DNA from: a virus
IMG/VR virus record: IMGVR_UViG_3300044982_000010
Location: 1 to 64,000 of that record
DNA: 64,000 bases
Reading direction: 5' to 3' (one strand)
In this document: piece after piece, positions 21,059 to 60,089 of the stretch
How the letters are laid out: each line of letters starts with the position of its first letter
How positions within the stretch are numbered: position 1 is the stretch's first letter
The notes under the pieces: model-generated
What the model was told of the DNA's origin: nothing
What the model saw: the letters and a program-made list of their open reading frames with translations, nothing else
Databases searched by the model: none
Position numbers and translations under genes: made by a program

Positions 21059-21297
21059 CAGACTTACCTCCCAACTACCTAGAAAAGCAAGCGAAGTGGG
21101 TCAAGCGCATGCAGAAAGCTGGGCTATTCCCACCTGATCCTCCCGCTGTCCCTACCGAACCATCTCTGCCGGAAGGCCAGTGGCGGATGACGAGCCAGCC
21201 TGATGGTATGGTGTTCGTTGAAGTCAACAACGTCCCTGTTCCAACAGAGGTAGCGAAGAAACTTTTCGACCTCGTGATGGGAACAGAAGCGTCGTGA
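21055..21297 (+). CDS. Small protein, unknown
   Basis: 80 residues, no domain recognised. Starts at an ATGA overlap and its stop overlaps a GTG start. Confidence 0.55.
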   Translation: MTDLPPNYLEKQAKWVKRMQKAGLFPPDPPAVPTEPSLPEGQWRMTSQPDGMVFVEVNNVPVPTEVAKKLFDLVMGTEAS

Positions 21298-21584
21298 GGG
21301 CGTCAACTATCATCTTACTCGCGGGGGTAGGCTATGCCCACGTTCAACCAGTTTACGCTCAGCATTGCTATAGTCGCTGGCATTATCCATATCCGCAACG
21401 CTGTGGCTTATACGCGCGGACGAGCGTCCCTGTACGGGTTCTACCAAGCAGCGTTACTCCTCCCCATCATATTGATAATCATATACCACTGCCTGACATG
21501 AGCGCGGCATGGAACGTTGACGATCTTAGCGAAGGGATGCAGCGCCTCAAGGCGCTGCGTTCGCTTACTCAGGAGGGTAACTGA
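21294..21584 (+). CDS. Small secreted Cys-containing protein
   Basis: 96 residues from GTG at a GTGA overlap. Hydrophobic N-terminus (TIILLAGVGYAHV) ending VYA-Q suggests a signal peptide cut near residue 22. The mature start HCYSRWHYPYPQRC has two Cys that could form a disulfide. A periplasmic role is inferred. Palindrome copies lie at 21317 and 21567, the second overlapping the stop. Confidence 0.6.
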   Translation: MRASTIILLAGVGYAHVQPVYAQHCYSRWHYPYPQRCGLYARTSVPVRVLPSSVTPPHHIDNHIPLPDMSAAWNVDDLSEGMQRLKALRSLTQEGN

Positions 21585-21778
21585 TGGGAAATTTTTCAGC
21601 TATGACTGAAGAAGAAATTATGACCTACTTTATGAACCACATGGAGACTAATGGTCAATACGCTATAGCGTTCGCCATTATGGCGCTCAAGACTGAACTT
21701 GCAGGCCAGCTTACGGATATCTATGAGATGCTTGACGGCATAACCACTCAAATTAAAGTTCTTGCCGATAACGTTTAG
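21584..21778 (+). CDS. Small helical protein, last rightward early gene
   Basis: 64 residues, amphipathic helices, unknown. AGGAGG of palindrome copy 21567 is the ribosome site. It ends 73 bases before the convergent PEP-CTERM gene. Confidence 0.6.
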   Translation: MGNFSAMTEEEIMTYFMNHMETNGQYAIAFAIMALKTELAGQLTDIYEMLDGITTQIKVLADNV

Positions 21779-21782
21779 GTAA

Positions 21783-21814
21783 TAAAAAGGGTGGGCCACG
21801 GGAGTAGCCCACCC
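21783..21814 (-). terminator. Rho-independent terminator of the PEP-CTERM gene
   Basis: On the minus strand an 8-base perfect stem (GGGTGGGC 21807-21814, with its partner at 21789-21796) and a 10-base loop are followed directly by TTTTT. The same hairpin may slow rightward transcription. Confidence 0.85.
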
Positions 21815-21850
21815 AAGTGTACGTAAGCCCCAATGAACGAAAGCTTACGA

Positions 21851-22501
21851 TTAGAATACCTCGCGCAACTCCCGTCGCTTGCGCATGCCCAAGAACGCCA
21901 AGCCGCCGAACCCCAGCAGGAGCATCGCCCACGTCGAGGGTTCAGGCACCCCAGTGGTCAACTGGATCGAGCCGCCAAACGACTGACGCGGCGCAGTGAA
22001 GTCCACCGCGAACTGCGTCTCGTCCGAACTGAACGCGCCGGTCGCCGCCGACACCGGGCCGAACGAACCATCGAGCAACGCCACCGGGAAGGTATGCGTG
22101 GCCAGCAACCCGCCATTGGCGAAGGTGCTTTCAGTCGTCGGGCCGGGGTCGTTGGTCAAACCGTTAACCGTGAACGTGCTGAGCGTGTTGCCAAGCCCAA
22201 GGATCGCGCTCTGAATAACGTCCACCGTCAGCGTGTGCGCGCCGCTGAAGCCTGCCGCTGCGGTGGCGTCGAGGGTGACGCTGGACAAGTCGGCGTTGGG
22301 CAGGATGGGACTGCCCTGCGCAGCGATGGTGATGTTGGCGAAGTTGGCGTCGTTGGCGGTGAGGCTCGCCGCACCCGTGGTGACTCCGGTAATATTGTCG
22401 ATCAGTGCGCCGTTGTCGAACACTTCGATCTGCAACGTCGCACTCGCGGGGGTAACCCCTACAGCGGCTAGCACCGCCGCACTCATTAGAAACCTATTCA
22501 T
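21851..22501 (-). CDS. PEPxxWA-CTERM exported protein (moron)
   Basis: 216 residues. The N-terminus is a signal peptide (RFLMSAAVLAAVGVTPASA). The body is Thr/Ala/Gly-rich and beta-like. The end is VPEPSTWAMLLLGFGG, a hydrophobic helix, then RKRRE: a PEP-CTERM sorting signal of the PEPxxWA type, known as the target of host exosortase in bacteria making exopolysaccharide. Start 22501 is preferred because GGAG lies nine bases upstream. It has its own promoter (22550-22578) and terminator. A palindrome variant at 22442 is read as VTPASA inside the signal peptide. Likely acquired from a host; role at the cell surface unknown. Confidence 0.85.
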   Translation of the reverse strand: MNRFLMSAAVLAAVGVTPASATLQIEVFDNGALIDNITGVTTGAASLTANDANFANITIAAQGSPILPNADLSSVTLDATAAAGFSGAHTLTVDVIQSAILGLGNTLSTFTVNGLTNDPGPTTESTFANGGLLATHTFPVALLDGSFGPVSAATGAFSSDETQFAVDFTAPRQSFGGSIQLTTGVPEPSTWAMLLLGFGGLAFLGMRKRRELREVF

Positions 22502-22549
22502 CTGTCCGATCTCCATTCCCCAGAGGCGAACCTTTCGCCAATGCGCAAA

Positions 22550-22578
22550 AGTATAACATAATGGTGTGAATGTGTCAA
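22550..22578 (-). promoter_or_regulatory. Sigma70-type promoter of the PEP-CTERM gene
   Basis: Minus strand: TTGACA (22573-22578), 17 bases, TATACT (22550-22555). It is about 50 bases before the chosen start. Confidence 0.8.
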
Positions 22579-22581
22579 GAC

Positions 22582-22609
22582 ACTGGCGGGAATTAGTTTT
22601 CCCGCCAGT
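22582..22609 (-). terminator. Hairpin ending the leftward structural operon
   Basis: Perfect 10-base stem (ACTGGCGGGA and TCCCGCCAGT) with an 8-base loop just after the stop of the 22618 gene. The T-run is poor, so termination may be weak or the hairpin may protect mRNA. Confidence 0.55.
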
Positions 22610-22617
22610 TCATGTTG

Positions 22618-23142
22618 TCACTCTAGATCGACAATCGCGTTCTCGTTCTTCATCCAACGCTTCTCAGGTCCGCCACCCTCCCTGCCGCTGCCCACGGTGG
22701 GGAAACCGCGCATGCGGATAACGCTCTCGCTATCGTCCGGTGCAGGAACCGCCGCCGTGGTCGGGTCGATGGGAGTACGATATGCGCCGGTCGTGGTGGT
22801 CAGTCCCGGCACCGCGTCGGGAAGCGGCTGTTCTTTTGCCGGGCTGGCGCGGGTCACGTCGGCACCTAGCGCCAACAGCTTGTCGCGCAGGTCTTCGTCG
22901 TCACCCACCCCCATCGTCGCGCGCTCGTAAGCCGCGTCGTCGGCGCGCTTGAACGCTGCGGCGGCTTCCTCAGCGCGCTGGCGCAACGTCTCTTCCGTCG
23001 AGCGCTTGGGCGGGCCGTTGGCGGGCATAGGTCCGCCACCGCCGCCCTTGGTGCGCTCCATATCCCTTGTGGCGTTGGGATTGTCCATCTGCTCGCGGGT
23101 CAGCGGCGGGGGTCGGGATGGTGTCTGTGGTGCTTGTGCCAT
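22618..23142 (-). CDS. Unknown Pro/Gly-rich protein
   Basis: 174 residues, disordered N-terminus, a charged helical segment (EETLRQRAEEAAAAFKRADD) in the middle. Last gene of the leftward operon. GGAGA ribosome site upstream. Probably a minor virion or lysis-region protein; no domain recognised. Confidence 0.65.
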   Translation of the reverse strand: MAQAPQTPSRPPPLTREQMDNPNATRDMERTKGGGGGPMPANGPPKRSTEETLRQRAEEAAAAFKRADDAAYERATMGVGDDEDLRDKLLALGADVTRASPAKEQPLPDAVPGLTTTTGAYRTPIDPTTAAVPAPDDSESVIRMRGFPTVGSGREGGGPEKRWMKNENAIVDLE

Positions 23143-23160: not shown

Positions 23161-23382
23161 CTATGACGAACCGGAAGGCGGGCCGTGCGCGCTTCCGTTA
23201 TCCTTGCCTCTGCTGAACCAATAGCCCATGATGATGGCGCTACCGGCAGGGATGGTGATCAGAAGTCGATCAACGATCTTCTGATTGTGGATGATCTCCG
23301 TGCCACACAGAACGAGCGTGATCATCGCCCCGACTGCCCAGATGATGGTGACGATAAGATCAGGGCGAAAGTTTTTCATCAT
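23161..23382 (-). CDS. Holin-like membrane protein
   Basis: 73 residues with two hydrophobic segments (LIVTIIWAVGAMITLVL and LLITIPAGSAIIMGYWF) and a hydrophilic tail. Size, topology and overlap with the M15 peptidase gene (ATGATGA) fit a holin that releases or activates the endolysin. It could also be another small membrane protein. Confidence 0.65.
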   Translation of the reverse strand: MMKNFRPDLIVTIIWAVGAMITLVLCGTEIIHNQKIVDRLLITIPAGSAIIMGYWFSRGKDNGSAHGPPSGSS

Positions 23383-23840
23383 GCAAATCCGTGGCGCGTG
23401 CCTTTAGTGTCGATAGTCAGGGCCATGTGGCGCGGCTCGCCCGCGCTCAGCCCGAGATGCACCCAAGTGTCATATTCGTGGATCAACTGATCGATGCCAA
23501 GCTTCTTCATGTGTGAGTGCAGATGCTTGCAAATCTGAAGAGGGGTGCCGAAACCCGGACACGAGAAGTCAACCGCCAGCCCGCTCATGTGGGCGCTGTT
23601 CTTGCTCCCTCCCACTGCCGCATTGACTTGCGGAGAACGATAGCCGGAACTGATCAACACTGGATGATCGCCAAGCAGCGTGCGCACGTCCTCCATCACT
23701 TCGGCAGTGCGTTGGAGGCTGGCCCGTTCTGGACTGCCCATTGGCGGCACATTGTTCAAGCCCATGCGCGCCGCCGTCTGGCTGTCGGTCATCTCTTCCA
23801 AAGTGAAGTGCGGCGTAAGCTCCGTCACTTCTGCCCCCAT
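23379..23840 (-). CDS. Endolysin, peptidase M15 (VanY/L-Ala-D-Glu type)
   Basis: 153 residues. LISSGYRSPQVNAAVGGSKNS followed by AHMSGLAVDF gives the H-x6-D zinc motif of M15 peptidases, with the third ligand in WVHLGLS. These cleave peptidoglycan stem peptides. No signal peptide is seen, so release needs the holin encoded next. It overlaps both neighbouring genes. Confidence 0.85.
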   Translation of the reverse strand: MGAEVTELTPHFTLEEMTDSQTAARMGLNNVPPMGSPERASLQRTAEVMEDVRTLLGDHPVLISSGYRSPQVNAAVGGSKNSAHMSGLAVDFSCPGFGTPLQICKHLHSHMKKLGIDQLIHEYDTWVHLGLSAGEPRHMALTIDTKGTRHGFA

Positions 23841-25308: not shown

Positions 25309-25590
25309 TTACTTGTCAACCGGCACGTGGTATTTGGTTTGCCCGGCTCGCCACGAGCGGTTCTTCTTCGCGCTCTCAACGCGCTCATTGGAGAGCTTGT
25401 TCGCTCCACCTCCCGCAAGCGGCGTAATGTGAGCCACATCGCCAGACGGAGCGTGACCCAGCTTCTTAGTCTCCGCTCGGCGCGCTTCATTGCGCTCCGC
25501 ACGGTGCTTGATCTGCTCGGGCCGTCCCTGATACTCGGCGTACTCATGCTTGTAGTTCCTTTTGCTCGGTGGGTTCTTACTGGTAGGCAT
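25309..25590 (-). CDS. Small HNH-like or structural protein
   Basis: 93 residues, very basic. KHEYAEYQGRPEQIKHRAER followed by AHITPLAGGGANKLSNERVES resembles small HNH-related phage proteins, though the full HNH triad is not clear. Starts inside the end of the giant gene with CAGGAG upstream. Its stop overlaps palindrome copy 25298. Confidence 0.6.
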   Translation of the reverse strand: MPTSKNPPSKRNYKHEYAEYQGRPEQIKHRAERNEARRAETKKLGHAPSGDVAHITPLAGGGANKLSNERVESAKKNRSWRAGQTKYHVPVDK

Positions 25591-28500
25591 GCTCGTACTC
25601 CTGCGCTAACCCGCCCTCTTTTCTCGGCACCTTCACCCCCAGCACGGTCTTCTCGCGTGAGGCATGCTTGGCCTTGAGCGCCGCGCCCACGCTCTGCCGC
25701 GCAGCCTCGTCCGCCTTCATCGCTTTCTGCAAGGCGAAATGCCCGGCCAGCAAGCGCTCGCGCTCGACGCCTGAGAAGCCCAGCATCTGAAGCAACTCGT
25801 CGCCCATCGAACCGGGCTGAGTGATCTGCTGCTTGCCCGCCATCTGCCCCTCGGTCGCCAGCCGGTAGGTCTTGAACATATCCTTCAGAGTGCCGGGCAG
25901 GAAGCTCTCGCCCGCCCGCTCGTAATCCCCCTGCTCGGCGTCATGCAGAGCTTGCAACCACTCCACCCCCATGCCGACTGACGCGCCCGCCAGCGACTTG
26001 GCGGTGTAAGCATACAGATCATCTGGTCTGTCCGACGATGGCTCACCAAACAGGAACCCAGCGTCGAACCCGGTGCGATGGCCCAAGCTAGGTCCGTACG
26101 GCCCCATCATCCCCGGTAGGCCGTCATGGATCGCCTTCGCCGCCGTCTCGCCAAGGTTACTCACCAGAGTACGGTAGAACCTGTCGTCCCAGTCGGCAGG
26201 GGAAGGCCCACCCAAGGCTTGCCCGCCCAGTCCGACCAGCTTGGGCAAGTCCATCGGCATGCCGCCCATGCCGCCCAGCGCCGCAGCGGTTCCCAGTTGG
26301 TAGGCCAGCGTCCAGCGCGCTTCGTTGTCGCCCGCGCCGCCCATCTTCTCGGGCAGCGACTTGGCGATGTTGCGGTACATCATGATGGCGAGGTTCATCG
26401 GCTGCTGCCGGAACTGCATGATCGGGCGGATGATCGGGTTCTTGAACGCAGTCGCCGCGTTGGTAGGCGAGAACACGCCATGCGTCTGCTCGATCACCCG
26501 GCGCGAGTAAGCCAGCGCGTTGGCGTTGCCCGCATCCTTGCCCTTGTGCATGTCACGCTCAAGCCGGTAGGCGTTCAAGGCTGTGGACAACCTGTTGTTC
26601 GCCTCCATCGCGTCGGTGAATTGCCTGACGATGGCGTTGGTGCGGTCCATGCCGGAACCACTGAACACGGACGCATCGAAGGCGCTATGCAGATGCTCGG
26701 TTTCCCACATCTTCATCAGCGCATCGCGCTCGTCCTTGTGCTTGAGGCCATTGATCATGCGCAGCACCGGGTCCACCCCGTGCGCCATCGCCACCGCCTT
26801 GTCGATGTTCTGCTCGCCGCCCGACTTGTAGACCTTGACCCCGGCCCGCACCCCTTCCATCAGATTGTGGCCCATGCCGCCCAAGTCTCTCATCGCTTGG
26901 CGCTGGCCCTGTAGCGACTTCCAATAGCCGTGCCGCGCCGCCATCATCGGCACCGAATAAATGTAGGGATGGATTTGCGACAACAGGATGTGCGACGGCC
27001 TTGCGAGGAAGTTGATGAACGCCCACGTCATCATCTTATGCATGAACGGCGAGGATGTGGACCCCATCGGGCTGGCGTCCCGGCCATAGACCCGGTTCAT
27101 GTACTCGTGCGCGACGATGCTTCGTCTGAGCGCGTTGTCCGGGTCGACGCTGCGCATCGCTCGCTCGTGCGCGTCGAGCCGGTCCATCGCCTCGTTCAGT
27201 TCCGGCGCGTGCGACTGCCGGGCGATATGGAAGTTGATCGCCTTGGCGTAGGCATGCAGCCCCGCCGCCGTGTCGAACTTCGCCCCGGCCACCTTGCGGG
27301 CTTGGATCATGTGCGACGACATGCCGCCTCTGGACGAGAGCATCATCTGCCGGGTGATATCCTTGAGGTGCTGCTTCTCCGCGTCGGTGAAGTTCTCATT
27401 GCTGTCGATCTTATGCTCGATGATCTTCTGATCAGCGCTGTTGATCTTTGACCACGCCTGCTCGTCGCGCTTGTCCATCACCCCCGACAAGTTCTCAACT
27501 CCATCCGCCGCCATCGCCTGCCGGTTGCGCTCGGCCTCGGCCCTTGAGGTCGCAGTCTGGTAGTTCTGACGCTCAAGCGACACACGATATTTAGACGTGA
27601 TATCCCCGACTGACGCCGCTTCCTCGCCGGTCACCCGCGTGATCTCACCAGTGGACGTGTCCTTGTGGTAATTGATCTCGCGCACCGTGGCTTTCATCCG
27701 GGTGCCGGTGGCGTAAGCGTGCGCCTGCGCCTCGGTGTCGAACTCGCGCACGTGGTCAGGGAGTTCCTCACCTGAGTAAGCCACCTCCTTCCCACCCTTT
27801 GGCATCGGGTAATAGCCGTTGACCACCTGCCTGCCATCACCACGTTGCGAGTTGAAGAACACGTCCTTGCCGTTCTGCAAGCGGTAGGCTTCGTGCAACT
27901 GATCAGCCACGCCCAGTTTCTCGTAGTGGGTCCAATCGGCCTCGGTCATCTCGTTGGTGCGGGCGCGGGTCATCACTTCGTCGCGAGTCGAACCCTTGGG
28001 GGCGGGGAACAACGGCAGCACGTTCTCCACGATGATCCTCGCCGCCTCGCCCTGCTTGTCCATGTAGTACTTCTTCTCGGCCCGGTAGCGCTTCTGAAGC
28101 TCTTCCGGCAGGTGACGATAGAGCGCCCGCGCCTCGTCGCCAAACTTGTCCCGCTGGTAGTAGCGCCGCGCCGCATCCGCTGGGTTCTTCGGCACTGCGG
28201 GCGCTTCCCGGTCGGCATGGATATTGTAGCGTAGCGACATGTCCAAGAGTTTTGCGTAGTTGGGCATAGAGGAAGCGTAGGTCTTGTCCAACATGTAGCC
28301 GCGATTGATGATGTCCGTGTCCTTGCCCATCAATTGCGAGTAGGTGCGCGACACCTTGTCGCGGGCGTGGTTGATCGCCTCCAGAATTTTACCCCTAGCG
28401 TCCTCAAACAGATGCCCGTGCATGTCGTTCAGCCACGTCCCGCTAAGCAGCTTGGCGGTGCCGCGCATGATGCTGCCGCCCAGATTGTGGATCGTGTCCT

Positions 28501-31500
28501 TGCCGTACTGCTTCACCAATGTGCGGTCGATATCCTTGACCCGCGACAGCGCCTCCTTGGGCGAGCGATAGAACGCTTCTTGGTCGCGCTCGGGCGGCGC
28601 TTCCTGCCGCGCCCATTTCGGTCGCGCAACCCGATCCTCGCCCGCCTCCATCTGGCGTTTTGCCAATCGGCCTGTCGCCGCCATCAGGTCGCCCGCGCCG
28701 CGTGGATCGCGCCACATCAGTTGCTCACCCAGCGACATCGCTGCCTCGATGGCGCTCACATCGCGTGGCCCCAGCCCCAACGCATCGCGGATGATCGCCA
28801 GCGCCCCTTCCCACATCGTCATCTTGCGCCACTTGGAGATGCCGATATCGTTCGCCAGTTGATCGCTGATCTTTACTCCCTTGAGTAACTCCTGCATCTT
28901 CGGGTGGGTCATCATGCCAGTCAGAAATTCTTTACGGCTGGACAGATAATAACCGATCTGACTGCGCTCCTTCGTCGTCATGTCGGGGAGGTTCTTCAGC
29001 ACCTCGACCCGTAGCCGCTCCATCAGCTTGCCAAGGCCGGGATTCTCGGAGATCGCGATCTCGGTGGCGGCGTGGAACGCCTCGTGCAGGGGCGTGTCGG
29101 GCGAAATATGGTCGGCATTGAGAATAATGACCGGCTTGCCGTCAAGCCCTTCGGGATGGAACGCGCCATAGGTCACCTGTCCGGGCCGGTTGCCCATCAC
29201 CCGGTTCATCTCGTCGTTGCTGAGATAATGCACAGGCGTGTCGCCCGCGATCCTGACCACCATATCGCGTAATTTACCCATTGCCTGCGCTGCGCCAGAC
29301 GCATAGCGGCCTACCTTGTAAGTCTCCTTGATCGCTTGCTCAGCGTCGGTGGTGCGCGACGGGCGGACGTTGACCTTGCCCAGCGCGCCATCCAGTTGGA
29401 TTTCCCCCTTGCCGGGCGGGCCTTCGTCCTCCCGCAACCCCTTAAGATAATACTCGGGGCCGACTAGCTCTTCCTCCTTGCTCCATTTGCCCCGGCTCTT
29501 GCGCACCTCGGTCTGGAACCCGGTCGCCTGCTTGACCGGTGTGTAATGCTCACCCTCTTCCACTTCGATGGGCGGACGCTCCTGCGGCGCAGTGCGCGTT
29601 TCCTCCCGCGCCAAGCGCTCACGCGCCACCCGGTCTTGATCCATCAACTTGGCGCGAGCAGGCGAGATAATCTCAGGCTCAGTGGGAAGAGCGCGCTTCT
29701 TGAGGTCGGCTTCGGCCTTCAGCTCGGCTTGGCGCTTGGCCTCTTTCTCTCGGGCTTCCCGTTCTTGCGCTTCCTTCTCTTTGAGCCGCTCGCCCATCGT
29801 GCGCTTGGCTTCTAGGGCTTTTTCGAGTTCGCGCTCGTGCGCCTCGTCGGCTGTCTCTTCCGCCTCAGTTCCCTTGGTGGCTTCTACATCCTCGACGCCT
29901 GTCTCCTTCACTCCCTTGCCGCGCTCGGCGGCTGTCTCGCGCCCACTCTGAGCGCGTTCGCCCAGCACTTCGTTGTAGGCGTCCTCGCCGCCCGTCAACA
30001 AGCGATGCTCGTTATGCAAAAACCGCATGTAGTCTTCAGTCTTCGCCTTGGCTCCCTTGCCCAAGAGTAATTTCGCTTCGTACAGGATCAGCGCTTTGTT
30101 GGAGTGCCGCGCCCCCTCGTCGGTTCGATGCTTGGCCTTCTGCATCATCTCGTACTTGGAGGTCTTGGCGTCCTCCAGCATCTCCTTGAGGCGGGACATA
30201 AGCGCCGCCCGCGCGCCCTTGCCACCCTCTTTGGAGGGATCAATCGCTCTGGCTTCAATCTCCTTCGACGGATGACGGTTCACCACCTCGTCAGCGATGC
30301 GGTTGTTGGCGGCTTGCGCCTCGTTGCGCTTCTTGTCCTTGCTCGGCTTCATCTCCTCTTTGGGCTTGATCACCTTGGCCGTGGGTTGCTCGGTCGCCAC
30401 CCGCTCGGCGGCGGCGCGGTCGGCTTCCGCCTGCCGTGCGGCGGCTTCTCGTTCCTCAGGCGTCTCGCTACGAAGAACTCTTCCTTTGGGTTCGGCAGGG
30501 GGAGTTTCTTTCGCCAGACCGATACGCGCCGCCTCGGCGTCTGCCGCCTCACGGATTTTATCCGCCTCGGATTTCTCTGGGACGTAACCCTCAGTGCCGA
30601 AATATTCGTGGAACAGCAGCTTGGCGGTGTCCTCCCCCATCGGCATCGGGTCTTTACCGGGGGCGACCTTGAGATAGGGCTTACCCTCCGGGTCCGGGTT
30701 GCGATAGAGTTTTATCCCAGCCTTGTTCTCAGCCAGCAACTCAGGCTCGGGTGGCTTACTCGCTTGAGTAACCGGCTCTTCACGCGTTTGTGATACATCC
30801 GTAGGTTGTACAGATGGCTCCTGTACTTCTGTAGGTTGTGCCTCCACCCCAGCCCCCGGCGCTTCTGCACGCTCGGGAGCCGGGGCGGGCTTTGCTCCAG
30901 CCACGGGAGAGGGTTCAGGGGCCTTCGCCGCCTGTGCGTCGATCTTATCACGAAGCGTACCGTCCTGCGCGGCAGCTTTGAGCGTGTCCTTGGTCCATTT
31001 GCTCCCTCGGCTATGGTCGTAGAGCACCGTGCCGCCGTCATCGGGCAGCTTGAGCTTGCCATAGCGCCACTTTTCTTGAGCAATATCAGGGACTTGCGCT
31101 CCTTTGGGGACGATCACCGCATCGCGCGGGTGGCTCGGGTCGAGAAGCTCGGCGTGCTGCTGGGCCAGCACGGCGGGATCGACCGGAGCCGGGGCAGGGC
31201 CGGGCGCTGGCTGGGGTCCAGTGGTCGGCTGAGAGGGTGATGGCCCGGCAGGGACTTGGGCCTCTGGCGGCCCTCTCTGTGGCTCCTGAGCGCTTTCTCC
31301 TGTAGGTTGTGCAACCGGAGGCGGTTGTACTACAGTCTCAGCCTGTGGTTTACTCTCTTGAGTAACGTCAGCAGGGGTAGAAATAGGGACGCTTTTTGTC
31401 CCCGCTTCTAGCGTCGGGTCGGCAAGAGGAGAAGTCGGAGGGGCTGGCCCAGCGGCAGTTTCGTCTTTGGGCGGGGCGGTCTTAGCTCGCTCCTTACTCT

Positions 31501-32386
31501 CAGTGGCGACCTGCTCGGGTGGCGTGCGCGGAACAGTAGCTTTCCCCCCTGTTTGGGTTGGGTCGCGATGTGCGCCGCTATGCGCCGCCTTGAACGCTGC
31601 GCCCTGCTCTGCTCCCTCTTCACCAGCGCCAATGATGGCGGATGGATCGTACTCTTTTCGCTTACCGGCAGCGATCTCAGATTGCTGCGATGCAGCTTCA
31701 CCCCCTGCCGCACCCGCGCCGAACGTCGCCGCGCCTTCCGCCACGCCAAGCGCCCTATCGACAATGGGCGTGGTGACGATCTTACCCGTCAGGCCAAGCT
31801 CGGGTATCAAACCCGTCGCCGCGCCAATGCCGAACTGCGTGAGTTTTTGTGCTGGCGTCAGTTCATAACCCTGTCCCACCGCCCGGTTCTGCGCTGTCCC
31901 GAGTTGCTGCCCACCCATCAGCCCGCCAACAACCACAGGAGCGAATGGACCGGCTAGCGCCGCAGGCGCAGCTATGGCTGCAACACCGGGAGCCGCCTCG
32001 GCGGCGGACACTAACGGATGCTTAAAGAACCCCGGCGCTTGCGCGGCTGGCGTCATGCCCTGCTCGGCTTCACGCGCAGCTTGCTCTTGGCTAAAGGCGA
32101 AAGATTGCGTCGCCGCTTGTGGCGCACCCGGCTCCTGCACCGCCGCCACAGCGCCAGCCGCTTCCGCTGCTACATCATGTCCGCCAGCTTTAACACCCTG
32201 CCACACATCGCCCCATGTCGGACGCCCGCCCGCCGCCACATAACCCGATACGCTCGCACCGGGGTCGGCAAGGAGAGGTTTGGTCAGGATATCATAGGGA
32301 TCAGGCGGCTCGATGGGCGCAGTTGGAGGTGCAGACGGCGCTAACGGCGTCATCAAGCTGACATATGGATCGCTGGCGTCAGCCAT
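25577..32386 (-). CDS. Giant polyvalent-type virion protein
   Basis: 2269 residues. Order: Ala/Gly-rich N-terminus; a Pro/Glu low-complexity region with Gln-Pro repeats (about 260-440); a charged coiled-coil part (about 600-900); a HEAFHAAT (HExxH) zincin motif near residue 1100; and a long C-terminal part with RPIMQFRQQPMNLAIMMY, resembling the PLxRFG end of phage polyvalent proteins. Such proteins are packaged and injected with the DNA and act early in infection. Five palindrome copies lie inside (26159, 27766, 28875, 30758, 31352). Start follows palindrome copy 32391. Confidence 0.75.
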   Translation of the reverse strand: MADASDPYVSLMTPLAPSAPPTAPIEPPDPYDILTKPLLADPGASVSGYVAAGGRPTWGDVWQGVKAGGHDVAAEAAGAVAAVQEPGAPQAATQSFAFSQEQAAREAEQGMTPAAQAPGFFKHPLVSAAEAAPGVAAIAAPAALAGPFAPVVVGGLMGGQQLGTAQNRAVGQGYELTPAQKLTQFGIGAATGLIPELGLTGKIVTTPIVDRALGVAEGAATFGAGAAGGEAASQQSEIAAGKRKEYDPSAIIGAGEEGAEQGAAFKAAHSGAHRDPTQTGGKATVPRTPPEQVATESKERAKTAPPKDETAAGPAPPTSPLADPTLEAGTKSVPISTPADVTQESKPQAETVVQPPPVAQPTGESAQEPQRGPPEAQVPAGPSPSQPTTGPQPAPGPAPAPVDPAVLAQQHAELLDPSHPRDAVIVPKGAQVPDIAQEKWRYGKLKLPDDGGTVLYDHSRGSKWTKDTLKAAAQDGTLRDKIDAQAAKAPEPSPVAGAKPAPAPERAEAPGAGVEAQPTEVQEPSVQPTDVSQTREEPVTQASKPPEPELLAENKAGIKLYRNPDPEGKPYLKVAPGKDPMPMGEDTAKLLFHEYFGTEGYVPEKSEADKIREAADAEAARIGLAKETPPAEPKGRVLRSETPEEREAAARQAEADRAAAERVATEQPTAKVIKPKEEMKPSKDKKRNEAQAANNRIADEVVNRHPSKEIEARAIDPSKEGGKGARAALMSRLKEMLEDAKTSKYEMMQKAKHRTDEGARHSNKALILYEAKLLLGKGAKAKTEDYMRFLHNEHRLLTGGEDAYNEVLGERAQSGRETAAERGKGVKETGVEDVEATKGTEAEETADEAHERELEKALEAKRTMGERLKEKEAQEREAREKEAKRQAELKAEADLKKRALPTEPEIISPARAKLMDQDRVARERLAREETRTAPQERPPIEVEEGEHYTPVKQATGFQTEVRKSRGKWSKEEELVGPEYYLKGLREDEGPPGKGEIQLDGALGKVNVRPSRTTDAEQAIKETYKVGRYASGAAQAMGKLRDMVVRIAGDTPVHYLSNDEMNRVMGNRPGQVTYGAFHPEGLDGKPVIILNADHISPDTPLHEAFHAATEIAISENPGLGKLMERLRVEVLKNLPDMTTKERSQIGYYLSSRKEFLTGMMTHPKMQELLKGVKISDQLANDIGISKWRKMTMWEGALAIIRDALGLGPRDVSAIEAAMSLGEQLMWRDPRGAGDLMAATGRLAKRQMEAGEDRVARPKWARQEAPPERDQEAFYRSPKEALSRVKDIDRTLVKQYGKDTIHNLGGSIMRGTAKLLSGTWLNDMHGHLFEDARGKILEAINHARDKVSRTYSQLMGKDTDIINRGYMLDKTYASSMPNYAKLLDMSLRYNIHADREAPAVPKNPADAARRYYQRDKFGDEARALYRHLPEELQKRYRAEKKYYMDKQGEAARIIVENVLPLFPAPKGSTRDEVMTRARTNEMTEADWTHYEKLGVADQLHEAYRLQNGKDVFFNSQRGDGRQVVNGYYPMPKGGKEVAYSGEELPDHVREFDTEAQAHAYATGTRMKATVREINYHKDTSTGEITRVTGEEAASVGDITSKYRVSLERQNYQTATSRAEAERNRQAMAADGVENLSGVMDKRDEQAWSKINSADQKIIEHKIDSNENFTDAEKQHLKDITRQMMLSSRGGMSSHMIQARKVAGAKFDTAAGLHAYAKAINFHIARQSHAPELNEAMDRLDAHERAMRSVDPDNALRRSIVAHEYMNRVYGRDASPMGSTSSPFMHKMMTWAFINFLARPSHILLSQIHPYIYSVPMMAARHGYWKSLQGQRQAMRDLGGMGHNLMEGVRAGVKVYKSGGEQNIDKAVAMAHGVDPVLRMINGLKHKDERDALMKMWETEHLHSAFDASVFSGSGMDRTNAIVRQFTDAMEANNRLSTALNAYRLERDMHKGKDAGNANALAYSRRVIEQTHGVFSPTNAATAFKNPIIRPIMQFRQQPMNLAIMMYRNIAKSLPEKMGGAGDNEARWTLAYQLGTAAALGGMGGMPMDLPKLVGLGGQALGGPSPADWDDRFYRTLVSNLGETAAKAIHDGLPGMMGPYGPSLGHRTGFDAGFLFGEPSSDRPDDLYAYTAKSLAGASVGMGVEWLQALHDAEQGDYERAGESFLPGTLKDMFKTYRLATEGQMAGKQQITQPGSMGDELLQMLGFSGVERERLLAGHFALQKAMKADEAARQSVGAALKAKHASREKTVLGVKVPRKEGGLAQEYEHAYQ

Positions 32387-32425: not shown

Positions 32426-35400
32426 TCATTGATTTAACTCCGGGTACAACTGCCTCTGTTCAGGCGGCATTTGCTCAACTGGCACACGCTCTGGCAATTT
32501 CAGGGATGGCCCCGGCCCTGCCGCTGGACGCCCGCCGCTCCAGAAATCAGGTCCGGTCGGCCCCGGTAGGGCGCGAGGTGGCGCGGCGGCGGGTGCGGCA
32601 GGCGCGTTTGGCGTCGGCTTCGGTTGAGCGTTGGCGAACTCCTGCTTGATACTGGCGATCTTATAACCATCCTGCCTCGGCAGGAACAGTCTGACGCCGG
32701 GGTCGCCTTGCTGCTGGTGAACGACAAACTGATCCAACTCCTGCCCGTGCCGGGTCACCGGCGTCGGCCTGCCGTCTATCGTGTACACCCCACGCGCCAA
32801 CCCATCCACCAGATCATGCACGTCGCCAAGCGCCATATGCGTGTTCCACGTCACTGCATCGCTGGCGATATTAACCACTGTGGTCGCTCGTTGTAGACCT
32901 CCGGTGGCTGCGGCTCCGGGCGTTGGCGGAAGGTCGTAGGCTTTACCCAGTGCTTGCGCCGAAGCGTGTTCATCCAAACTACCATCACTCTTGTACACGG
33001 CGTAGCGAGGCAGCGATGCCGTCACCGCCATCGGGGTCGTGTCCTTATAGGTTTCACCTCGTTGCGTTGGGGTTAGTGGCGCTTGCTCCTCGTAAGTCCG
33101 CGTCGTCCCTACGTCCGTGCGCTTGTTCTCCTCAATCTTAGCCGCCGCAGCAATTTGATCTTGAGTGCGCTTGTCTGCGGCTGCATCGGCGCGAGTCTGT
33201 TTAGTCAGGTCACGCCGCGATGTAATGTCTGAGGCGATATCACGTCGCCGTGCGTCAATATCGTCTTGCATCAATTTTTGGTTCTGCTGCACCGCCGCTT
33301 GGTACTGTTGCTCGCGCTCGCGATACGCGGCTTGAACTTGCGGCGCATAGCTCTTGAAAGTTACTTGATCGATAGGCGGCGGCGAGCGTAGCACACGTCC
33401 GCCAACGATAGGCCGCATATCGGCAGTGAAGTACTTAGCGCTACCATCAGGGTTCATGTTCGCCTGAATAGGCACTTGCTGGTAAGCGACGCTATGCTCA
33501 AAGTCCACGTCCTGACTGCCCGCTGCCGGAATGTCGGCGGTGGATGGCGTCGTCGGCGCAGCCGGTATGCCATGCCTCCCAGCACCGGGTACAGGCGCAG
33601 CCGCCGCTATACTACTATCGGAAGTCGGCGGTGGGGCGGCGGTTTGCGCCGTGGTCGTGTCGGGGCTGCGACCGGGCGACGGCGCAGGAGCCGTTGCGGC
33701 TGTCTCCGGGGATGCAGGCGCGGCTCCCGGTCCGGGCAGGGCAGGCTTACTCACGGGAGTAAGCACAGGCGGCGCATTGGCAGGGGCAGTTGGCGGCGCA
33801 GTTTGGTCGTCGTACGTCGGTCCCATCGCAGTAATCTGTTCGTTCGCTTGCGCCTGCGCTGCTTTATCAGCGTCTTCCTTGCCCTGCGCGATAGCGTTGG
33901 CGCGGCGGTTGGTTTGCGCTTCCGCGAATGTGTGATCATATTTGGCCGCTTGGCTCTCCAGCGCGTTCCACTGAAGCTTGCCGAGACGCCCCAGCGAGGT
34001 CGCCCGCTCAAGAATTTGCACCGCCGCACCCTGCTGCTGCCACAGCACTTGGCCGTTGAGGTTCTTGCCCTGCACCGTCACCGTCTTGCCGTCAGGGTTG
34101 AGCGTCATGTGAACCAGCCGCCCGTCAGGCACCGCGTCAGACGCTTGGTTGGCGTAGTCGATGGCCTTATGGATGTCACCGTTGTACAACGCCTTGGAAG
34201 CTTGGTCGGACAGGTTCTGCGAGGCGAACACCGAATAGTGCAGAATGCTCGCAGCCAACCTGCCTGCGGTCGCGTCGTCGCCGCGCGCCATCGCCCACTT
34301 CCAACCCTGCTCCAATCCGAGAATGTTGCGATAAGAGGTCTGAAGCTCGTGGTTGGGATCGTTAATGTCGTTAAGCTCCTCCGCGTTCTGATGCGTAAAA
34401 TACGTCGCGCCATCCGGGGAATTGGTGGCGAATTGCTGCCGGTTGGTCTGCGTGTCCGGGTTGGTGGCGATAGCCGGGTGCGCCTGCGCCCCACTCACAA
34501 GGCCCAGATGCTCGCCCAGCCAGTGCAACCCAGAAGTGATCGCGCCGATCAAACCTCTGGAAGGATTGCCAGCGTCGTCCTTGCCTTGCGGCATGGTCTG
34601 ATCAGGCGGCGGGTTGTTGTCATGCAACTGACCCGCGCCCTGTGCGGGTTGTGCGGGTTGTGCAGATTGCGCGCTGATGTCCTGCGGGTTAATGTACCAA
34701 CCGGGGTCTTTATCAGAAGTGGGCGTCGGCGGCGAGGCGGACTGCGCGCTCCCTGCATCCTCCCGCTCATCTTGCGCATCCATGAACGCCATGCTTTGCA
34801 AAGTGCCCATATCGCCAGCGCCGGGGTCCACCCCGCCGCCGTCATCGAACGCCACCACGCCGCCGCGCGCCATCGGCAGGGAAGGGATAGCGCCAGCGGT
34901 GTACACTGGGGCAGAAGTCTGGGTCACCCCCTTGCCGACCGGTGCGCCCGCGCCCGCATAAGTCGCCGGGTTGTAGTAATAAGGCGGAATTTGCTGCTGA
35001 CCGCCACCAGACAGGCCGGGCGGCATGCCCAACGCGCTCGGGCTGACATCGCCGGATTGATCCACCCCGCCGCCCATGTCGAAGCGCTTAGTTACTCGCT
35101 TGAGTAAGGGGCCTCCCTTGGCCGAGAGTATTGTGCTGTTACTGTTCTGAGTGCCGGAAATCTGGCCGGGAGAAGTTTGGTTGAGGAGATCGTTCGACCC
35201 TACACTGTAGTTGGTGCCGCCCGTGCTTGAAGTGTTGGCGAACCCAGCCCCGGTTTGCGCGTCCACGTTGGGATCGTAGCTCTTGGCTTGGATCGCATTG
35301 GGAAGTCCCGGCGCACCCGTGGTGGTGGTCGCCGTGGGGTCGATGGTAGCGACATCGACAATGGGTTGGCCCTGATTGACGATGCTCTGCGGTGCAGGCG

Positions 35401-38400
35401 CTGGCTCGCTCAGAGGCGTCGGTGCAGTTGGCGCAGTCGGCCAGACCGCGTTCGGCATGATGCTAAACTGAGAGAACGCGCCCGCGCCAAAGGGGTCGCC
35501 GCTTCCGCCTGCGGCGTAATAGGCGGAAGCCTGCTGCCCTTGCTGGCCCTCCAGCGTGACCGCTTGCTGTTGCTGATCGGCCCACGCCTGCTGATTGGGC
35601 GCAAGCTGACTCTCGGGCGTGCCTGACCAGCCGCCGCCAATATCTGGCCCAACATATTGAGGGCTGAAATAATATTGCTCTGCCGGGGTCCGTGACCCCT
35701 GATAGCCGACAGGGGTGTAAGGGACCGTGCCAGCGTCAGCGAACTTCAACGTCGGGCGCGCGGGTATCCCGCCTTTGGCAAGCTTCTGACGAGGAATAGG
35801 CCCGCCCTTGCGCGACAGGATCGTCCCACCTGCACCGGAAATCTGACCGGGGCTAGTCTGTTGCAACAGGTCGTTCGACCCTACGCTGTAGTTGGTGCCA
35901 CCTGCGTTCGACGTGTTAGCGAACCCGGCCCCGGTTTGCGCGTCCACGTTGGGGTCGTAGCTTTTCGCCTGCACCGCGTTCGGCACTCCCGGCGTGCCGG
36001 TCGTAGTCGTAGTGGTCGGATCAACAATCGTCGTCGCCGCAGGCATGTTGGTGATGTTCTGCACCGAAGGCGGATTGATGACCGGCGCAGGGGCGGGCGC
36101 AGGCGCGGGCGTTGGCGCGGCAGGAGCAGGCGCAAGAGGTTGCCACGTGCCAGCCAGCATCGCGTTATATTGCGACAATTGATCCGGGGTCATCTTTGAC
36201 CAATCAGTGGTCAAAGTCTGCCCACCCGGCCCGCCTTGCCCCGGCCCATAGGATGTATAGTAGGGTGCGCTTTGCCCAGTGAGATCGACCGGCGTCATAC
36301 CGGGTAGACCAGTCATATACTGATCCGCCGCTAACGTATTTCCCGATAAGCCGCTCGTAGGCGTTGCCGGGGCGGCTGGCGTATAGGATGGATATTGCGA
36401 AGATACCGGCGCAGTCCCACCGCCTTGCAGCTTGATCGTCGGACGCGAGGGTATCCCTCCTTTAGCGAACTTCTGGATCGGCCCGCCCTTGCGCGAGGCG
36501 GTGGCGATGTCACCCAGATCATCTGGACGAATGGGTGGCATCGGGGCAGGGACAGACTGCCCGCCGCGCGCTCCTTGGCCCTGAGTGAGGACGATGTTGC
36601 CGGATGGGTTCATCGTCGGGCCGGGATACGGCGTCGGCCCGCCACCGGGTGGCGATAGGATTTCTCCCTGTGCCGGTGACGAAGGCGCACTCGGTTGCAC
36701 CGGCTGCGGCGCACGCTGTGCCAATGGCGGGTTTGGCCCCCACAAGTGTGACAAATCCAACGCCGTCGTCAAAAGTGCGCCGCCTCGCACATTGGTTGGA
36801 TCGGCGTTGGGCCGGGCCACCGTGGTGAACATGCCGCCGCCCGGTTGGTTACTCGGCTGAATAACTGCGGGACCGGCAGGGGAGGATACTGGCTGAGCGG
36901 CAGGGGAAGGCTTATCGGCGTCAGTCGGCGCACCTACCGCAGTTTGACCCCGTACATTCTGTTGCGGTGGCATGTGGCTGTAGGTGAGCGGCAGGGTGGT
37001 GCGCCCCGGCCCTTCCGGCCCCATCTGTGAGGGAGGAACAGGCACGGACGACGGCGTAATCCCCACGTTGGGCGGCGCACCCGTACGCTGGGGCGGACCC
37101 ATAACCGGACGGTTTGGAATGGCCGAAGGCGTGATCCCCACATTGGGCGGCGCACCCGTTCTCTGGGGTGGGCCTTGCTGCGGGCCGGGTCCGTAGGGTG
37201 TCGTGCGCGGATCGAGGTTGGTGGTGGCGATGGCGTGCGGCGGGATCGCCGGTCCCGGTCGCTGGTGAACAGAAGTGGCAACGCCAGAGGACGGCTGGTC
37301 GGAAGGTGACAGGGGCCTCGTATTGTACACATTTTGATCGGGCGGCGCATAAGGACTTTCCGGTCCCTCCTGCGTCGTTGGCGGCGGCGGCAGTTCAGAC
37401 GGGCGGCGGATGGTGGTATCCGGTTCCGGCGCTTCGTGCGGGCCGGGAGGCGGCGGCTCATCCGCTTCTCTGAGACCGGGTGGCACATCAAACTGAGGTT
37501 GCGCCCGGTGCGCCTCCAAGTCCCTGCGCGCCTTCTCAGCCTGCTCGGGGGTCAGTGCGATGTCGGTGTCGCCCGCCACCTGATAAGAACCATCAGCCCG
37601 CGCCGTCGTAACCGGTTTAGAGGCAGACGACCCATCAGCTTGCGTATCCCCCGGCACTGCGCGACGAGCGCTGTAATTGGACAGCGGCACCCAGCGCTCG
37701 CCCACTTTGCCAACTTGAGCGCGTGGGATAACCCGACCCGACTGCATCGTGTAGCTGCCGGGCGTGCCTCTGGTATCCGTCTCGTTGCCAGCGATGATCT
37801 TGACTTCAGGACCATTCCGTCCCTGCCGAATTGGTCCCTCAGCAAAGCCGACATGAGAACCATCGTTGGCGACGATGACATCGCCTGCTTGAATGCCCTT
37901 CGACTCGACGGCGCTGCCCCACGTTCGGTAATCCCCGGCGACCGCCCCCGGACCCGTCTCAGTGCCGGGGCGCACCGTCGTTGGAATGGGCAGGCCGTTC
38001 TTATGCAGAGCAGCGCTGACGAAAGAGGCGCACCATGCGCTCTTGTGCGGATCGAGGTCTTGCCCGCCATTATGCAGAAAATCCATAACCTCCTGATGGT
38101 CAGGCACCTCGCCCTTACCCAACATCGACTTGGCGTCTTTAAGGGCGTTCTGGACTGCCGCCACCGCTTCCGGCTTCTTGTCGGCAAGCTCCGGGCTGTT
38201 CAACGGCGATTGCTGTTGTTGCTGGTTTTGCGCAGTCCGAATGGGCTGACTCAAATCCTGCGGCAGCGCCTTGTCATAGGCGACCGCACGAGCGATATGC
38301 TGTGCAAACGCCGGTATGCCGGGGCCACCCTCAGTCATGCCCTCAAAGTGATGCTCCCATGAATTGGCTGCACCCTCGACCGTGTTCTCTTTTTTGAGTT

Positions 38401-38965
38401 CTTCGATGGCTTGAGCATATTTAGGGTTGGTGTCGATCTCGCGCTGGAGGTTACCCCAGTTCGCCTCGTAGCTGCTCGTGTCGAGATTATTGGCTTTGGC
38501 GTAATTTTCAAAGTCAGTGCGACGTGGGCTACCTTCCGTATCGGTCCATTGCGCGTAACCCAGCCCAGAGTGCGGGCCGGAATGTCCCACCTCCTGCATC
38601 ACCTTGAAGTCGCCACTCTCATAACCCATAGTGCCGACCGCACCAACCGCCTGATCACGAGTCAGGTGATATTTCTGCGCCATGTCGCTGGCAAGCCGCT
38701 GCGCGGTGTCCATCCCACCACCGCCGCCTCCACCGCCACCGCCGCCCCCACCCAACGCGCCTCGGCCTTGAGCGATCTGGTTTTGAAGCTCAGCGTCTTT
38801 TTGTTGCTGCGCGGTTAACTTAGGGTGCGTAGCCGCCCAACCCCGGTCCTTATAGTACTGGGCGCGAGCTTGGTACAATTGCATCGTCATGCCAAGCCGC
38901 ATCATGGCGATGAGGCTATCGGAAAAACCCTTGGCGAACGATCCGTAGTGTTTGCCCATAGGCAT
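32426..38965 (-). CDS. Giant ejection protein with two murein hydrolase domains
   Basis: 2179 residues. After a short Gly-rich stretch, residues about 85-235 (MAQKYHLTRDQAVGAVGTMG, then WEHHFEG) resemble a phage tail lysozyme domain. Residues about 300-440 hold WCASFVSAALHKNG and GSHVGFAEG, the Cys and His of a CHAP/NlpC-type amidase or peptidase. The rest is Pro/Gln-rich linker with KGG motifs, an internal duplication near 35.2 and 35.9 kb, then a more folded C-terminus. Probably opens the cell wall during DNA entry. Palindrome copies at 33749, 35094 and 36851 are inside. Confidence 0.75.
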   Translation of the reverse strand: MPMGKHYGSFAKGFSDSLIAMMRLGMTMQLYQARAQYYKDRGWAATHPKLTAQQQKDAELQNQIAQGRGALGGGGGGGGGGGGGMDTAQRLASDMAQKYHLTRDQAVGAVGTMGYESGDFKVMQEVGHSGPHSGLGYAQWTDTEGSPRRTDFENYAKANNLDTSSYEANWGNLQREIDTNPKYAQAIEELKKENTVEGAANSWEHHFEGMTEGGPGIPAFAQHIARAVAYDKALPQDLSQPIRTAQNQQQQQSPLNSPELADKKPEAVAAVQNALKDAKSMLGKGEVPDHQEVMDFLHNGGQDLDPHKSAWCASFVSAALHKNGLPIPTTVRPGTETGPGAVAGDYRTWGSAVESKGIQAGDVIVANDGSHVGFAEGPIRQGRNGPEVKIIAGNETDTRGTPGSYTMQSGRVIPRAQVGKVGERWVPLSNYSARRAVPGDTQADGSSASKPVTTARADGSYQVAGDTDIALTPEQAEKARRDLEAHRAQPQFDVPPGLREADEPPPPGPHEAPEPDTTIRRPSELPPPPTTQEGPESPYAPPDQNVYNTRPLSPSDQPSSGVATSVHQRPGPAIPPHAIATTNLDPRTTPYGPGPQQGPPQRTGAPPNVGITPSAIPNRPVMGPPQRTGAPPNVGITPSSVPVPPSQMGPEGPGRTTLPLTYSHMPPQQNVRGQTAVGAPTDADKPSPAAQPVSSPAGPAVIQPSNQPGGGMFTTVARPNADPTNVRGGALLTTALDLSHLWGPNPPLAQRAPQPVQPSAPSSPAQGEILSPPGGGPTPYPGPTMNPSGNIVLTQGQGARGGQSVPAPMPPIRPDDLGDIATASRKGGPIQKFAKGGIPSRPTIKLQGGGTAPVSSQYPSYTPAAPATPTSGLSGNTLAADQYMTGLPGMTPVDLTGQSAPYYTSYGPGQGGPGGQTLTTDWSKMTPDQLSQYNAMLAGTWQPLAPAPAAPTPAPAPAPAPVINPPSVQNITNMPAATTIVDPTTTTTTGTPGVPNAVQAKSYDPNVDAQTGAGFANTSNAGGTNYSVGSNDLLQQTSPGQISGAGGTILSRKGGPIPRQKLAKGGIPARPTLKFADAGTVPYTPVGYQGSRTPAEQYYFSPQYVGPDIGGGWSGTPESQLAPNQQAWADQQQQAVTLEGQQGQQASAYYAAGGSGDPFGAGAFSQFSIMPNAVWPTAPTAPTPLSEPAPAPQSIVNQGQPIVDVATIDPTATTTTGAPGLPNAIQAKSYDPNVDAQTGAGFANTSSTGGTNYSVGSNDLLNQTSPGQISGTQNSNSTILSAKGGPLLKRVTKRFDMGGGVDQSGDVSPSALGMPPGLSGGGQQQIPPYYYNPATYAGAGAPVGKGVTQTSAPVYTAGAIPSLPMARGGVVAFDDGGGVDPGAGDMGTLQSMAFMDAQDEREDAGSAQSASPPTPTSDKDPGWYINPQDISAQSAQPAQPAQGAGQLHDNNPPPDQTMPQGKDDAGNPSRGLIGAITSGLHWLGEHLGLVSGAQAHPAIATNPDTQTNRQQFATNSPDGATYFTHQNAEELNDINDPNHELQTSYRNILGLEQGWKWAMARGDDATAGRLAASILHYSVFASQNLSDQASKALYNGDIHKAIDYANQASDAVPDGRLVHMTLNPDGKTVTVQGKNLNGQVLWQQQGAAVQILERATSLGRLGKLQWNALESQAAKYDHTFAEAQTNRRANAIAQGKEDADKAAQAQANEQITAMGPTYDDQTAPPTAPANAPPVLTPVSKPALPGPGAAPASPETAATAPAPSPGRSPDTTTAQTAAPPPTSDSSIAAAAPVPGAGRHGIPAAPTTPSTADIPAAGSQDVDFEHSVAYQQVPIQANMNPDGSAKYFTADMRPIVGGRVLRSPPPIDQVTFKSYAPQVQAAYREREQQYQAAVQQNQKLMQDDIDARRRDIASDITSRRDLTKQTRADAAADKRTQDQIAAAAKIEENKRTDVGTTRTYEEQAPLTPTQRGETYKDTTPMAVTASLPRYAVYKSDGSLDEHASAQALGKAYDLPPTPGAAATGGLQRATTVVNIASDAVTWNTHMALGDVHDLVDGLARGVYTIDGRPTPVTRHGQELDQFVVHQQQGDPGVRLFLPRQDGYKIASIKQEFANAQPKPTPNAPAAPAAAPPRALPGPTGPDFWSGGRPAAGPGPSLKLPERVPVEQMPPEQRQLYPELNQ
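35163..36030 (-). repeat. Internal ~180-base duplication in the ejection gene
   Basis: Two similar copies, about 35163-35345 and 35848-36030, each encode a block including KSYDPNVDAQTGAGFANTS, GTNYSVGSNDLL and TSPGQISG. They differ at many third positions, so the duplication is not recent. Confidence 0.75.
37064..37165 (-). repeat. Tandem repeat in the ejection gene
   Basis: Two adjacent similar units encode RTGAPPNVGITPS with GPPQ before each. Part of the Pro-rich linker. Confidence 0.6.
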
Positions 38966-59965: not shown

Positions 59966-59994
59966 ATTATAGTATGGCGCATGTTGTTTGTCAA
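59966..59994 (-). promoter_or_regulatory. Perfect-consensus sigma70 promoter for the terminase
   Basis: Minus strand: TTGACA (59989-59994), 17 bases, TATAAT (59966-59971). Both boxes and spacing match the consensus. Palindrome copy 60021 sits 27 bases upstream of the -35 box, a plausible regulatory position. Confidence 0.9.
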
Positions 59995-60060: not shown

Positions 60061-60089
60061 ACTGTATTTACTTGGTGAATACTTGTCAA
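60061..60089 (-). promoter_or_regulatory. Possible second leftward promoter
   Basis: Minus strand: TTGACA (60084-60089), 17 bases, TACAGT (60061-60066). The -10 box matches 4 of 6. It would also read toward the terminase. Confidence 0.5.

Follow-up and report, generated by a model that had tools for sequence, protein, structure and literature searches.

A phage gene cassette with an exosortase-type sorting signal and an exchangeable ectodomain

The soil phage DNA analysed here (IMG/VR record IMGVR_UViG_3300044982_000010, positions 1 to 64,000; this whole stretch of 64,000 nucleotides is called the window) carries, between its two gene arms, a leftward gene encoding a small PEP-CTERM protein, with a predicted signal peptide, an ectodomain and a C-terminal sorting signal of the kind recognized by bacterial exosortases. 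Comparison with related phages indicates that this gene forms a phage cassette, both self-contained and exchangeable, in which the ectodomain is swapped between conserved bookends. As the best overall reading, to which we give about an even chance, the product would be a phage accessory protein displayed by the host exosortase, likely for superinfection exclusion.

The cassette and its exchanged ectodomain

Relatives of the primase of the window were found in IMG/VR in L274 (the same contig as L056) and L273/L275 and, at a greater distance, in L077. All four sister contigs, which represent three distinct phages, contain a PEP-CTERM gene in the same slot. The ectodomain in this slot belongs to one family (F1) in the window and L056 and to an unrelated family (F2) in L273/L275 and L077. 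When the DNA of the window was aligned with that of L056 and L273, the promoter, hairpins, signal-peptide region and terminator were near-identical, and only the ectodomain was replaced in L273. Common ancestry of the ectodomains of F1, F2 and a third family, F3, was considered and rejected (profile-comparison probabilities of 6%, 1% and 0.2%).

The initial annotation of the window, made from the letters and their open reading frames (ORFs), had described a leftward gene between two arms. This layout was confirmed: the last ORF of the rightward (replication) arm ends at 21778, and the nearest gene of the leftward arm is 22618-23142. The features of the cassette, in the direction of transcription, are as follows.

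22583-22608, minus strand: 10-bp hairpin (CTGGCGGGAA...TTCCCGCCAG) between the gene and the upstream leftward gene; folding z = -8.0; near-identical in L056 and L273
22573-22578, minus strand: -35 box TTGACA, kept in the window, L056, L273 and L077
22550-22558, minus strand: extended -10 element, TGT-TATACT, after a 17-nt spacer (promoter scan)
22511-22514, minus strand: putative ribosome-binding site GGAG for the start at 22501, read from the sequence
21851-22501, minus strand: coding sequence of the PEP-CTERM protein, with 216 aa and a stop codon; a start at the ATG at 22516 would give 221 aa
22439-22501, minus strand: predicted N-terminal signal peptide (MNRFLMSAAVLAAVGVTPASA) with no lipobox cysteine, from the sequence; hydrophobic helix 2-14 in the structural model
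21950-22438, minus strand: F1 ectodomain, about 160 residues with about 10 beta strands, phage-restricted (model and profile searches)
21872-21949, minus strand: PEP-CTERM signal, comprising VPEPSTWA, a transmembrane helix and a basic tail (profile matches)
21822-21849, minus strand: hairpin CGTAAGC...GCTTACG directly 3' of the stop codon (folding, sister alignment)
21781-21814, minus strand: intrinsic terminator GGGTGGGC...GCCCACCC-TTTTTATT (sequence, sister alignment, folding)

Translation probably starts at the second ATG (22501), because GGAG is located nine bases upstream of it and the first ATG is absent from the sisters L056 and L273.

A TTGACA-17-TATACT promoter and a T-run terminator had been assigned to the gene, and both assignments stood. 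The promoter, at 22578-22550(-), agrees with the consensus at 11 of 12 bases and includes the extended -10 TG; sites with at least 9 of 12 are expected 0.5 times in the scanned region, and this one ranks second among sigma-70-like sites across all 64 kb. In L056 and L273, the promoter is 2 bases shorter at the -10 element, yet TTGACA-17-TACGAT with the TG is retained. The terminator consists of an 11-pair stem followed by TTTTTATTA (21814-21789, minus strand), and the 78-nt 3' region has a folding z of -5.4. The hairpins at 22608-22583 and 21849-21822, missing from the initial annotation, are conserved in sister phages, and the regions with all three structures (two hairpins and the terminator) fold far better than shuffled sequence. 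An own promoter as a universal feature of the gene was rejected, as it is present in some lineages only. Elsewhere in the window, a perfect TTGACA-17-TATAAT lies at 59994(-), together with a 10/12 site at 60089(-), upstream of the terminase gene.

The order of signals previously read in the product (signal peptide, VPEPSTWA, hydrophobic helix and basic tail) was borne out by profile searches, in which the protein passed the PEP-CTERM cut-offs of both Pfam (PF07589, 31.2 bits with a cut-off of 20.7; 35.2 bits in the genome-wide search) and NCBIfam (TIGR02595, 28.1 bits with a cut-off of 16). It narrowly missed the cut-off of the PEPxxWA-CTERM model NF035944 (33.7 bits; cut-off 35), which was matched by 18 of 20 family members at E <= 0.01 (best 4.5e-10). 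The predicted signal peptide, with a hydrophobic N-terminus and an ASA cleavage-like site, is retained across all three families F1, F2 and F3. An AlphaFold model built from the family alignment showed a helix, about 10 beta strands and a second helix, at modest confidence (predicted local distance difference test score, pLDDT, of 61). Also at the arm junction, on the opposite strand (21294-21584, plus), is a gene for a small protein that looks secreted and contains CYSRWHYPYPQRC as a motif; this protein has relatives in L056, L066, L069 and L077.

Spread, selection and candidate hosts

A search of other phages for the same signal, suggested in the initial annotation, was fruitful. The IMG/VR scan returned 154 relatives, and at least 65 of the loci listed, on contigs that may be fragments, share the F1 ectodomain, mostly at about 80% identity, in phage lineages that in many cases have no flanking gene in common. 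The F1 profile matched all 14 F1 phage records used as a positive control (most near E 1e-91) and none of 272 Bradyrhizobium and 385 Alphaproteobacteria genomes, nor any of the exosortase-bearing bacteria tested. In INPHARED, there was no F1 match even at E 10, and F2 gave chance-level matches only. Among the sequences clustered, F1, F2 and F3 were confined to viral contigs, and in the lineages checked the F1-bearing gene adjoins phage replication, tail or lysis genes. With the gene masked and flanks of up to 5 kb per side compared, the median ectodomain identity was 87.8% for 1178 locus pairs without a common flanking protein and 88.0% for 592 pairs with one. The genomic sister L056 is 84.8% identical to the window in the ectodomain, while 39 loci with no shared flanks are 87-92% identical. 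As judged from these comparisons, the gene moves between phages, and its ectodomain is independent of the genome background. Accidental pickup of a host gene, or a mis-assembled contig, is scarcely credible as an explanation: PEP-CTERM genes occur frequently in some soil Hyphomicrobiales, but the same gene is found in at least 65 contigs, stands beside phage genes in the lineages checked, is under purifying selection and is absent from the sampled host genomes. Host-gene contamination was rejected on the grounds of viral spread, absence from bacterial genomes and flank-independent identity. Three IMG/VR records of about 40 kb (L209, L234 and L249), which resemble isolate prophages by their numbering, encode nearly identical 180-aa PEP-CTERM proteins.

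In the F1 ectodomain, nonsynonymous divergence (dN) was 0.083 and synonymous divergence (dS) 0.92, giving a dN/dS of about 0.1; across pairs, dN ranged from 0.03 to 0.15, and dS was about 0.9, reaching 2 in single pairs. With dN low and synonymous sites strongly diverged, the ectodomain by this measure evolves under strong purifying selection, and its exchange is more than a recent event. Across 49 distinct F1 proteins, identity to the window is only about 55% in the signal peptide and terminal helix, whereas the majority residue accounts for 94% on average in the VPEPSTWA columns (mean column majority 0.94; helix and tail, 0.53). Since a plain membrane anchor would not need a conserved PExxTW, this pattern indicates that the sorting signal is itself under selection. 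Judging from these signals, the product is very probably sorted by an exosortase.

Exosortase had also been proposed as a thing to look for in candidate hosts. It was found there, as a single copy in 15 of 16 bacterial genomes located via the same tag, and in none of 15 phage records. In one tag-bearing genome the enzyme was typed as XrtV (L160; 324.1 bits to NF035943, cut-off 313), and its gene adjoins an EpsD-like gene. The trait is sporadic, occurring in 11 of 150 genomes sampled from the order and in 19 of 149 from the genus to which Bradyrhizobium jicamae belongs. Among the Bradyrhizobium genomes sampled, most of those with an exosortase encode 10-32 PEPxxWA proteins, and most others encode none. 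We regard Bradyrhizobium and other Hyphomicrobiales with the same tags as plausible hosts.

These counts bear on the idea that the product is a decoy substrate, which would saturate the host exosortase and block the display of host surface proteins. Phage records typically have one PEP-CTERM gene (exactly one in 15 of 16 F1/F2 records; two in G018) against the 10-32 of most such hosts, and this, together with the strong independent promoter, speaks for a decoy. A decoy, however, would need neither an ectodomain under strong purifying selection nor defined, exchangeable ectodomain families, and we consider this role very unlikely.

The PEP tail is not the only terminus found on these ectodomains. 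In one F1 copy (L057:1339-1995, on the same contig as L354), VVPGPVVGAGLPGVIVGCGFLVLLAMTRRK replaces it. A scan for the pattern VPGPxxGAG[LF]PG gave at least 120 viral stretches (L276-L395). In all 130 matches listed, the pattern lies 22-50 residues before the stop, and those inspected continue with a hydrophobic stretch plus basic residues. Signal-peptide-like starts are present in 120 such proteins, and in 85 of these the ectodomain matches a PEPxxW-tailed protein, with up to 88% identity. Because ectodomains are shared between the two kinds of proteins, the sequences suggest that VPGPxxGAGLPG is a second, interchangeable sorting tag. No NCBIfam model covers the tag as such; one protein bearing it passes the cut-off of the 'cistern' PEP-CTERM family over its full length. 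Exact GAGLPG tags are near-absent from the bacteria sampled (0 of 150 genomes in the order, 2 of 61 in Bradyrhizobium). One Bradyrhizobium genome (G231), for which no exosortase match was listed, has three exact VPGPxxGAGLPG tags (L396, L398 and L399) within about 17 kb of its contig C2 (about 2.66-2.68 Mb).

The window genome encodes a family A DNA polymerase, an SNF2 helicase, a DUF927 primase/helicase, an M15 endolysin, tail fibres, a portal-like protein and a terminase. A lytic lifestyle is probable, because neither an integrase nor a phage repressor was found in the roughly 40 ORFs that were scanned (there was one weak regulator hit). The label 'moron' given to the gene in the initial annotation therefore holds in part: the gene has its own promoter and terminator between phage genes, but the strict prophage sense of the word is not supported. 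The closest cultured relatives are the Rhizobium phages RHph_TM3_14A, TM29, TM27A and TM27B (terminase 46%, primase 29%), and the nearest cultured phages of two lineages infect Rhizobium and Ochrobactrum. RHph_TM3_14A, the one cultured relative examined, has no PEP-CTERM gene.

Several neighbouring or related loci were noted in passing. The M15 endolysin (23379-23840, minus strand) is 78-85% identical in L021, L035, L045, L058, L014 and L015, in which the other flanking genes differ from those of the window; by this comparison the endolysin is another exchanged module. A Rhizobium phage protein annotated as 'putative integrase' (L079 42239-45322, MN988472) is a relative of the window's DUF927 primase/helicase, and its label is probably wrong. 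Two giant ORFs are adjacent in the window, 25577-32386(-) of 2269 aa and 32426-38965(-) of 2179 aa; the first matches only an unknown phage family, phrog_37402. A tRNA-Pro call at 33626-33704(+), antisense within the second, is probably spurious.

Proposed role of the product

We propose that host sigma-70 RNA polymerase would transcribe the cassette from its own promoter early in infection, and that the product would be exported by Sec and then held by its C-terminal helix. The host XrtV may cut it at the PExxTW site, after which it would be delivered to the host surface or exopolysaccharide. There, the beta ectodomain could cover or alter a structure used by competing phages for entry, leading to superinfection exclusion. 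The steps after export are modelled on the bacterial PEP-CTERM system (PMC1569441). Exclusion was judged the most likely function because no other reason for a phage to put a small protein on its host's surface is as well documented, and because close relatives alternate in their ectodomain type; as the role of this product we advance it tentatively, with slightly less than an even chance.

Several points weigh against this proposal. The host, secretion, processing and exclusion are all deduced indirectly, and the presence of exosortase is documented in candidate hosts. Strong purifying selection is atypical of fast-diversifying arms-race proteins. The ectodomain fold had no convincing match among solved or viral structures (none at E <= 0.001; weak, inconsistent matches to beta proteins). 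In most loci of lineage A, no strong own promoter was found, and the gene lies behind replication genes. Finally, the flank-sharing comparison reached at most 5 kb on each side.

At the host surface, the product could instead modify the host exopolysaccharide or aggregation (floc or biofilm), for example keeping infected cells clumped so that progeny meet new hosts. PEP-CTERM proteins have been linked to exopolysaccharide loci (PMC1569441) and to floc formation in Zoogloea and Aquincola (PMC9850573); the EpsD-like neighbour of the examined XrtV gene points the same way. Yet no carbohydrate-binding domain was found in the product by sequence or fold, and a short lytic cycle leaves little time for matrix building. 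We regard this function as unlikely.

Quite unlikely, in our estimate, is that the product is a lysis-related envelope protein, such as a spanin substitute that helps to breach the outer membrane after the endolysin has acted. N- and C-terminal membrane segments around a beta ectodomain recall unimolecular spanins (u-spanins), and in the window, L021, L035, L058 and L077 the gene has near it an M15 endolysin and a holin-like ORF with two helices. However, none of the 49 distinct F1 proteins has a lipobox, so that the outer-membrane anchor defining u-spanins is missing, while the C-terminal segment is present. The early-type promoter and the terminator set the gene apart from lysis genes, the conserved PExxTW motif would be superfluous in a mere membrane anchor, and most lineage-A loci showed no member of the M15 endolysin family within reach.

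A wider scheme can be drawn from the sequences, in which soil phages of Hyphomicrobiales would run a modular surface display. A few phage-only ectodomains would be exchanged within a conserved cassette and joined to either of two interchangeable C-terminal tags, the PEPxxWA/XrtV tag of the host or an uncatalogued VPGPxxGAGLPG tag read by some partner enzyme, and the ectodomains would set exclusion groups among competing phages. This generalization is speculative and somewhat unlikely.

Comparison with known systems

Dozens of unrelated phages devote a gene to exosortase, a sporadic host trait; therefore, exosortase-mediated surface display is suggested to be useful to the phage. Exosortase thereby becomes a possible determinant of host range or of competition between phages, and the phage products offer small natural exosortase substrates for work on a sorting route that is still little understood. 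Through the swapped ectodomains, it can be asked directly whether ectodomain type predicts which phages co-infect.

Like substrates of the bacterial PEP-CTERM/exosortase system (EpsH; XrtV subtype), the window protein combines a signal peptide with VPEPSTWA, a helix and a basic tail, is encoded in a single-gene transcription unit, and has a matching exosortase in candidate hosts. Unlike them, it is encoded by a phage, and its ectodomain families were not found in the bacterial genomes searched. The best full-length NCBIfam match, to the FxDxF family of PEP-CTERM proteins (NF038126; 38 bits over residues 44-208), fell short of the curated threshold of 50 bits. Some bacterial PEP-CTERM genes have a sigma-54 motif (PMC1569441), whereas the window gene has a sigma-70 promoter.

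In the open-access papers searched, we found no earlier report of a phage exosortase-tag cassette, save a passing mention in PMC11003980, where TIGR03118 proteins with a putative exosortase-interaction domain are among viral genes from Yellowstone hot springs. These are likewise virus-encoded proteins with an exosortase-type C-terminus, but they belong to a different family and are listed merely as horizontally acquired, without analysis of sorting, exchange or host.

The window product also resembles phage proteins of surface exclusion, among them Cor of phi80 and N15 and Llp of T5, which are small, phage-encoded secreted proteins with their own transcription units and a proposed action at the host surface. 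Cor and Llp use the lipoprotein route. The window product, in contrast, would use the exosortase; none of the 49 distinct F1 proteins has a lipobox, and exclusion is its proposed role.
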